Below, in pieces: positions 19,380-20,181 of a stretch of 46,645 nt of DNA (the stretch's first letter is position 1; every line of letters begins with the position of its first letter). The translations under genes were made by a program, and so were the position numbers. A model generated the notes under the pieces. It did no database searches and was not told the origin of the DNA. It saw only the letters and a list, made by a program, of their open reading frames with translations. The stretch is from an uncultured Azospirillum sp. (GTDB lineage: Bacteria; Pseudomonadota; Alphaproteobacteria; RF32; CAG-239), in assembly GCA_947301965.1 (NCBI GenBank), contig CAMYUM010000013.1, positions 1 to 46,645 on the forward strand, read 5' to 3'.

Positions 19380-19394
19380 TTATTTAAGCGGTTT

Positions 19395-19411
19395 GAGGTA
19401 TAGCTCAATTT
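19395..19411 (+). repeat. Partial copy of the tRNA-Ala 5' end
   Basis: GAGGTATAGCTCAATTT resembles the tRNA-Ala 5' part (GGGGTATAGCTCAGTTG) 24-25 bases downstream with few mismatches. It covers only the D-arm start and cannot fold as a tRNA, so it is a duplicated fragment. Confidence 0.5.
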
Positions 19412-19418
19412 GCTGATT

Positions 19419-19494
19419 GGGGGTATAGCTCAGTTGGGAGAGCGAATGGTTCGCAATCATTAGGTCGTCGGTTCGATCCCGATTACCTCCACCA
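19419..19494 (+). tRNA. tRNA-Ala (anticodon CGC)
   Basis: A 76-base cloverleaf with acceptor GGGGGTA / TACCTCC that includes the G3:U70 pair that identifies alanine tRNAs. D-arm is GCTC/GAGC, anticodon stem AATGG/TCATT with anticodon CGC (19452-19454), T-arm GTCGG/CCGAT. The CCA end is encoded. It decodes GCG. Its last 17 bases plus five more are repeated exactly at 19678-19699, as in integration sites. Confidence 0.93.
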
Positions 19495-19499
19495 ATTTT
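19478..19499 (+). repeat. Left copy of a 22-base attachment-like direct repeat
   Basis: The 22 bases from the T-arm to just past the CCA of tRNA-Ala are repeated exactly at 19678-19699. Such a duplication of a tRNA 3' end is the usual mark left by integrase-mediated insertion. Confidence 0.65.
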
Positions 19500-19502
19500 G
19501 CT

Positions 19503-19531
19503 AAAAGAGGCACAAGTAGCCTCTTTTTTTT
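19503..19531 (+). terminator. Terminator after tRNA-Ala
   Basis: Stem AAAAGAGGC / GCCTCTTTT with a 7-base loop and a long T run, 8 bases after the tRNA end. Confidence 0.88.
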
Positions 19532-19677
19532 GTTTGGAATCGAACCAAGGTTCGTCTTGCTACGTAAGTGTGCGCTTTTATGGCGCGCACTAACTTTGCT
19601 TCGGTCAAGTTTGTTGTATTATTCGCCTTTATGCCTGATCAGGCAAGGCTCATAAACAATAACTACAGCTCTCGGCC
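19532..19677. other. Short segment between attachment-like repeats
   Basis: This gene-free stretch holds three inverted repeats: CGAACC-AA-GGTTCG (19543-19556), GTGTGCGC / GCGCGCAC near 19567-19590 and the perfect palindrome GCCTGATCAGGC (19632-19643). Read on the minus strand, the first resembles a tRNA T-arm (TTGG-TTCGATT-CCAA). No protein could be supported. It looks like the residue of a deleted mobile element. Confidence 0.4.
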
Positions 19678-19699
19678 CCCGATTACCTCCACCAATTTT
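19678..19699 (+). repeat. Right copy of the 22-base attachment-like direct repeat
   Basis: Exact copy of 19478-19499 (tRNA-Ala 3' end). The rest of the tRNA is absent, so it is not a second tRNA gene. Confidence 0.65.
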
Positions 19700-19707
19700 A
19701 ATAATAA

Positions 19708-19742
19708 AAAAAACAGCGTGCTTTGAGGGCCGCTGTTTTTTT
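19708..19742 (-). terminator. Terminator of the four-helix orphan gene
   Basis: Stem AAAAAACAGCG / CGCTGTTTTTT with a 12-base loop; T runs on both strands. Lies 26 bases after the stop of the gene at 19768-20181. Confidence 0.82.
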
Positions 19743-19767
19743 AATTTAGTTTTAGTGTAATGTCTGT

Positions 19768-20181
19768 TTAGTGGTCGGCAGAGTTTGGATTGTCTTCGAA
19801 ACGTTGAGACGTGTGAAGGATGATGCCGAACAAAGCAAAAATTACCGAGACAACGATAATACCGACAATGCACAGCAGTCCGGTATTTTCGGAGGTGAGT
19901 TGGCAAGTACCGAAGTGAAAGCCATACGCGAGGATTAGTAGCATCCACAAAAAGATGATGGCGCACCATTCCTTACGATAAACACGCCAGCGTGATTGGT
20001 TCGTGGTTTGGGGTACGAGACGGTATGAGAGGAAAAGTTCAGCGATGTAGAATATGAACATTCCAATGCCCCATACCCAACCTGACGGTACTATGTACAA
20101 TAACACGCAGTAAATTGCCATCAGCAAAACAGACAACCCAAGAAGGGCAAGCTCGTTAGAATAAATTTTTAATTTGCTCAT
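19768..20181 (-). CDS. Orphan membrane protein with four predicted helices
   Basis: 137 residues with four hydrophobic segments: near 12-32, 36-52, 72-90 and 98-122. The soluble C-terminus reads HTSQRFEDNPNSADH. No family recognised. The coding region is richer in G and C than the genes around it. It has its own promoter (20226-20254) and terminator, and an AT-rich leader (CAATTTATAATTACTTAAATT before ATG) with no Shine-Dalgarno sequence. It lies immediately beside the attachment-like repeat at tRNA-Ala, which suggests arrival by lateral transfer, though it is outside the repeat pair. Confidence 0.65.
   Translation of the reverse strand: MSKLKIYSNELALLGLSVLLMAIYCVLLYIVPSGWVWGIGMFIFYIAELFLSYRLVPQTTNQSRWRVYRKEWCAIIFLWMLLILAYGFHFGTCQLTSENTGLLCIVGIIVVSVIFALFGIILHTSQRFEDNPNSADH

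Follow-up and report, generated by a model that had tools for sequence, protein, structure and literature searches.

The window, by which we mean the whole stretch of DNA analysed here (46,645 bp), corresponds to contig C13 in a genome of 1.29 Mb that is assembled into 21 contigs. It contains an intact tRNA-Ala(CGC) gene at 19419-19494 on the plus strand (found by ARAGORN and by the Rfam tRNA model, 64 bits), which is the host gene of the features described below. On its 5' side lie the genes of a ribonuclease E/G and yacG, and on its 3' side a convergent ORF of 137 aa without a Pfam family, followed by a TerC/Alx gene. The final 17 bases of the tRNA plus the five that follow (ATTTT) form the sequence CCCGATTACCTCCACCAATTTT at 19478-19499, and a first-pass annotation of this DNA had already pointed out that these 22 bases recur exactly 200 bp downstream. 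This was confirmed: the second copy, on the same strand at 19678-19699, is an exact direct repeat with a start-to-start distance of 200 bp, and the two copies are 93% identical when stretched to 27 nt. With up to three mismatches allowed, CCCGATTACCTCCACCAATTTT has these two matches only in the window, and none in 100 shuffles of it. The tRNA is thus followed by a displaced copy of its own 3' end, which makes the right border of the interval and has a counterpart at the matching place in the genome of a relative (G002).

Several folded features are packed between the two copies. A terminator-like hairpin (19503-19527, plus strand, pattern scan) adjoins the intact tRNA and would, if the interval is modelled as one inserted unit, be part of it. 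It is followed by a foldback at 19536-19554 (plus strand), with the sequence GGAATCGAACC-AA-GGTTCG, that reads as the T-arm of the tRNA in inverted form (by eye, with one mismatch) and then a direct half T-arm, and includes the palindrome CGAACC-AA-GGTTCG (19541-19554, by eye); 3'-side copies at other tRNAs have a foldback at the same place. The remainder, 19555-19676 on the plus strand, is what we call the core, here 122 bp long and without the terminal hairpin of its 155-bp counterpart in G002. It includes a strong hairpin, P2, of 10 pairs at 19567-19591 (plus strand, pattern scan), a helix with compensatory changes in the family described below, and a second palindrome, GCCTGATCAGGC, at 19633-19644 (by eye). 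No convincing gene was found between the repeat copies, the sole ORF of at least 90 aa that reaches in (19619-19969, minus strand) being without a Pfam match. The description of the interval in the first-pass annotation, a terminator and palindromes but no gene, is accurate.

Outside the repeats, two further features deserve mention. Just beyond the right copy, a second terminator-like inverted repeat at 19703-19746 (94% complementary, with a similar one in G002) is probably the terminator that belonged to the site originally, used also by the convergent orphan gene. Upstream of the tRNA, 25 bp away, a partial copy of its 5' end (19392-19410, plus strand, direct repeat of 84%, 16 of 19 bases) is present also in G002, and in another relative, G009, it stands ahead of a 5'-side core (by eye); it may be a remnant of an older 5'-side unit. 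The orphan ORF itself (19768-20181, minus strand) encodes a membrane-like protein, whose DedA-like match is weak (E=0.00013 in NCBIfam, far under the cut-off), and is found at the same place in G002 with 62.6% protein identity. No link was found between this gene and the insert with which it was suggested to have arrived: the gene sits outside the right repeat, its GC content (44.7% against 41% for the window) is only mildly richer, and it is kept in G002.

The comparison with G002 clarifies the nature of the interval. There the neighbourhood is the same and the arrangement recurs, spaced by 238 bp and with an additional terminal hairpin; the window unit, at 200 bp, is about 38 bp shorter because this hairpin has been lost. 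The constancy in all relatives that would have refuted the first-pass annotation is not seen, G009 being without the arrangement on the 3' side. What lies beside tRNA-Ala in the window is one slightly worn, nearly whole copy of a small gene-less repeat element.

Parts of the interval were matched beside other tRNAs in relatives, namely Ala-GGC and His, and at a Pro gene on the 5' side. An 18-mer, TCGAACCAAGGTTCGTCT, searched with one mismatch allowed, occurs at seven places in four of 57 relatives' genomes; all are exact, and all adjoin either a tRNA gene or a fragment of one. A 20-base version of it, scanned against a collection covering 84,980 species, gave 13 matches in 11 stretches, whose titles name Alphaproteobacteria, Rhodospirillales or proteobacterium without exception. 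Twelve cores, including that of the window, were aligned and folded, and a covariance model (R1) was built on them. R1 has matches in 120 of the 126 family genomes sampled (E <= 0.01) and none in the other six; up to 24 candidates per genome were scored under strict filters, so that the copy numbers are minimum values. Some of the copies from which the model was built lie beside tRNAs, which may favour finding more of the same kind, but the copies of genome G088, discussed below, were found as well. When 50 kb of E. coli and eight tRNA loci of class-level relatives were searched as controls, a single match resulted, with E = 0.8. In the window R1 matches 19556-19690 with 74.9 bits and E=6.6e-18, this core being among the 12 used to build the model. 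The window's own genome has four R1 matches among those listed; copies other than the one at tRNA-Ala stand beside tRNA-Thr and tRNA-Glu. Several genomes hold many copies of the core, which is typically of about 150 bp. Two contigs of genome G082 end inside cores (C11:55433 and C12:1). Breaks of this kind probably lead to under-counting of the elements in short-read assemblies, and counts may be distorted. A phage or plasmid origin was considered and rejected, since the interval of the window had no match in phage records, one core (from genome G120) had none in plasmid records, and three scans of viral contigs with exact patterns gave no match.

The fold of the core is supported by covariation. 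The fold obtained from the 12 cores has 33 pairs, 20 of which show compensatory changes. In 117 R1 hits, drawn from 100 searched sources, standard pairs make up 90.3% of the paired cells, a share that falls to 42-52% when the partners are slid by one to three columns, and double-sided changes are seen at 31 of the 33 pairs; no value as high came from 500 shuffles. In these statistics the alignment is fitted to R1 and the shuffles leave relatedness in. Cells with G.T outnumber those with A.C by 79 to 58 without G088 and by 133 to 65 with G088 included, counting cells that are not independent of one another. Because the excess is small without G088, we lean weakly towards a structure formed at the DNA level rather than in a transcribed RNA. 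A known structured RNA family was rejected as an explanation: in the window only tRNA reaches the gathering score of any Rfam family, and a relaxed search of five loci added to tRNA nothing but matches below that score.

A marked feature of the family is its position beside tRNA genes. When the best R1 match per genome was inspected at 30 loci, a tRNA gene was present in 28, at about 43-85 bp from the core and belonging to many isotypes. A fuller sample was taken from 12 genomes, with R1 matches listed at about E <= 0.001; its 143 hits (at least one listed match, G088:C21:12-107, was left out) were reduced to 130 counted copies by removing 12 partial or weak ones and one merged duplicate. Among the matches listed, the 11 genomes other than G088 account for 92 copies, 54 of which overlap a tRNA gene or lie within 110 bp of one, while another 19 have one at 111-560 bp, contig ends account for 12, and seven are without a tRNA found. 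Zones of 110 bp around tRNA genes make up an estimated 1% or so of a genome. Three geometries are represented among the matches listed (3' side on the same strand, 19; 3' side on the opposite strand, 17; 5' side on the opposite strand, 12), and a 5' side position on the same strand was not seen. Genome G088 is different, with four of its 38 counted copies at tRNAs and 34 away from them (among the matches listed). This genome (loci L119-L153) has about 40 cores, which by eye are mostly beside intergenic palindromes within repeat mosaics, the palindromes being of two kinds, CCCTCCC...GGGAGGG and CACCC...GGGAGAGG.

The flanks of the tRNA-side copies are local. Of 52 copies, 42 have a right flank whose strictly best match, in competition with 16-18 other tRNAs, is the own tRNA (the test fails in the other 10), and 34 have such a left flank, the foldback (the test fails in 18). 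The copy in the window fails both tests because the model hit overruns the right border and the foldback is worn.

The displaced tRNA ends were used as a measure of unit length. At 22 loci with a 3'-side copy, mostly high-scoring, a displaced 3' end (up to two mismatches) was present in 18 and none was shown in four. The first displaced end lies 230-247 bp off in 17 of the 18, and 200 bp off in the window. Units of this length, which leave no room for a usual gene, are found beside several different tRNAs and in a number of genera. Some 3'-side loci carry arrays of two or three units, and congeners differ in their number: at tRNA-Arg(CCG) there is one displaced end in G082 vs two in G074.

One tRNA site allows a comparison of the empty and filled states; it concerns a 5'-side unit, the window's own copy being of the 3'-side class. 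The tRNA-Pro(TGG) gene is empty in the window's genome (G000) and in G012, the upstream flank directly adjoining the tRNA. In G009 an insert of 250 bp stands between the tRNA and the flank known from G000 (85% identity), with 38-40 bp of the 5' half of the tRNA on either side of it. At the same gene two units are present in G002, and in G008 at least that part of one unit which is proximal to the tRNA. Where the site is filled, the native flank lies on the side away from the tRNA, and the new upstream region of the intact tRNA is alike in G009, G002 and G008. This polarity is the one described for islands in tRNA genes in passages of PMC4383910.

The core itself seems to move between tRNAs, because near-identical cores are found at different tRNAs with sharp ends and local flanks. 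Cores 89-95% alike are located at the His and Lys tRNAs of G074 and at a Gly tRNA of G082, in each case with such ends and flanks. More generally, the nearest neighbour of a core is at the same tRNA in the same genus for 26 of 71 cores, at the same tRNA in another genus for six, and at another tRNA for 39. In G115 (L101) a displaced Val fragment contains a nested Pro-type core, with no duplication visible by eye. The ends of the cores show by eye only a short CTGG/CCAG symmetry, and no transposase was matched to them. Gene conversion among copies could be the source of part of the likeness of cores, and part of the tRNA-site pattern is inheritance, since congeners hold a similar core at many tRNA sites.

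A search for a possible mobiliser was carried out in 12 carrier genomes. Y1 transposases are present in four of them. Reverse transcriptases (RVT_1) are found in only two, the window's genome not among them, and the IS110-type Transposase_20 in none, so that we rejected both a retroelement and a derivative of IS110/IS1111. Phage_integrase genes are found in all 16 genomes examined (the 12 carriers and four without a model match), with two to eight in each. G000 and G088 have two each (312 and 315 codons, and 316 and 361 codons, respectively), which from their size and number we read as XerC/XerD; those of G000 lie on contigs other than the window's. Among the recombinases, transposases and reverse transcriptases searched, nothing is common to the carriers beyond this pair, recognised by its size. 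Two larger tyrosine integrases were also noticed: one of 436 aa in G095 (L250 2860-5600) by a cut tRNA-Lys piece and a core, with a Resolvase gene near, and one of 402 aa in G115 (L251 4400-4800) by a cut tRNA-Thr piece and a core. Both loci are presumably larger islands. At the border that was read in each, the tRNA piece begins in the anticodon region and the core is on its far side, and these integrases were not taken as mobilisers of the element.

Given the repeat family, its fold and tRNA association, the local flanks, the empty and filled site and the near-identical cores at different tRNAs, all of which are observed, the interval in the window is, in our view, probably a slightly decayed, gene-less and non-autonomous mobile element that lands at tRNA genes, a reading that we hold with some reserve. 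The sharp-ended core of about 150 bp (ends roughly TCTkGCT...CTCC) would be the movable part, folding probably as single-stranded or extruded DNA. The unit beside a tRNA, usually of about 235-250 bp, would consist of the core plus a second copy of one end of the tRNA gene, either the 3' end with its terminator or the 5' half, which would leave the tRNA intact and place the displaced end at the far border, as is the case for tRNA-integrated islands. The folded core may be recognised in trans by a recombinase or transposase and would be joined at target DNA able to form hairpins, such as tRNA arms or intergenic palindromes, and the copies that spare the essential tRNA would be those that survive. 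More tentatively, such elements could represent a new class of gene-less transposable DNA, with a folded core of about 150 bp moved by a recombinase of the host or in trans, inserting at the hairpin arms of tRNAs and copying the local tRNA part and foldback, which would let the core switch tRNAs without breaking them.

The alternative that survives best, although we think it unlikely, is that the unit is a circle of 230-250 bp integrated by a tyrosine recombinase, XerC/XerD or another acting in trans. The circle would carry a tRNA end and an attP, with the crossover in a tRNA loop and the core as the folded attP region. Unit borders do often fall within T or anticodon loops (by eye), and tRNA loops are known crossover places according to sections of PMC8371274 and PMC4383910. 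The near-constant period of the tandem arrays, the shift of the native flank to the far side and the presence of just two Phage_integrase genes in each of G000 and G088 also fit such a circle. Some borders are elsewhere, however (the base of the anticodon stem at tRNA-Thr, the D-loop at the Ala site of G009), and cores occur also without a tRNA end. Near-identical cores also have local ends at different tRNAs, whereas a circle bearing the end of one tRNA would make hybrid tRNAs at another.

The first-pass annotation had seen in the repeat the scar of an attachment site, what remains after most of an integrated element was lost. The insertion at the tRNA stands, with the whole tRNA followed by a displaced end and the contrast of empty and filled states at another tRNA; the loss of most of a larger element does not. 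A once larger tRNA-integrated island, prophage or CIME whose genes were deleted between attL and attR would share the whole tRNA and displaced end, and integrase genes do adjoin cores and pieces of tRNA-Lys and tRNA-Thr in G095 and G115, but at those two loci the tRNA piece comes from the anticodon region and has the core on its far side. Units of 230-247 bp at 17 of 18 3'-side loci, beside various tRNAs and in various genera, are not the outcome of independent deletions, nor is a covarying core what such deletions would leave; near-constant unit and covarying core together led us to rule out the lost island, and we retain for a scar of this kind a very small probability. The same two features, across genera, speak against a CIME that arose from an ICE or IME through gene loss, although as an indirect test.

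Just as improbable to us is a functional non-coding element, for instance one with an effect on tRNA expression, whose copies are inherited and stay alike through concerted evolution. The conserved fold, the matches in 120 of 126 genomes and the occupation of the same tRNAs in congeners agree with a function, but the orthologous tRNA is empty in the window's own genome, copy number varies, three different geometries are used, and 34 of the 38 counted copies of G088 are off tRNAs (among the matches listed). The small G.T excess over A.C without G088 is also below the expectation for a transcribed RNA.

No description of such elements was found in Rfam or in the open-licence literature (best-ranked matches, by title and start of abstract), which does not disprove its existence. 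Several known systems offer a comparison. REP/RAYT and IS200/IS605 elements are hairpin-rich and possibly recognised as single strands. The present core is likewise hairpin-rich, but a Y1 transposase was found in just four of 12 carriers. Bacterial MITEs and other small repeats such as NEMIS, RUP, ERIC and RPE are portrayed in parts of PMC2229807 as gene-less, folded sequences of less than 200 bp with many copies and a mobiliser that is mostly unknown. The present core of about 150 bp is also gene-less, multicopy and folded. The small repeats have terminal inverted repeats, TA ends and target duplications (in the same parts of PMC2229807), whereas the present element is located mainly at tRNA genes in 11 of the 12 genomes sampled and is accompanied by a duplicated part of the tRNA gene.

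CIMEs, defined in a portion of PMC5704250 as elements that have lost their integration and transfer genes, resemble the present units, going by that portion, in their att-like borders, the absence of integration genes and their tandem occurrence, but differ from units of near-constant length with a folded core conserved across genera. The family, with its many copies, empty site and tandem arrays, makes the minimum size of a tRNA-integrating element testable, and likewise what mobilises the element and how a core switches its tRNA target without destroying the tRNA. Lastly, islands classically dock at tRNA genes, and in the islands and IMEs of the type collected by Islander the tRNA target also stays whole, with the displaced cognate fragment at the far border; their borders are often in the T or anticodon loop, and they form tandem arrays as well. 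The present unit differs from them in having neither an integrase gene nor any other gene and in its length of about 235 bp (200 bp in the window), well below 2 kb. Surveys of the Islander kind would overlook gene-less elements of about 0.2 kb because, as set out in part of PMC4383910, they demand an integrase gene and discard candidates of less than 2 kb.
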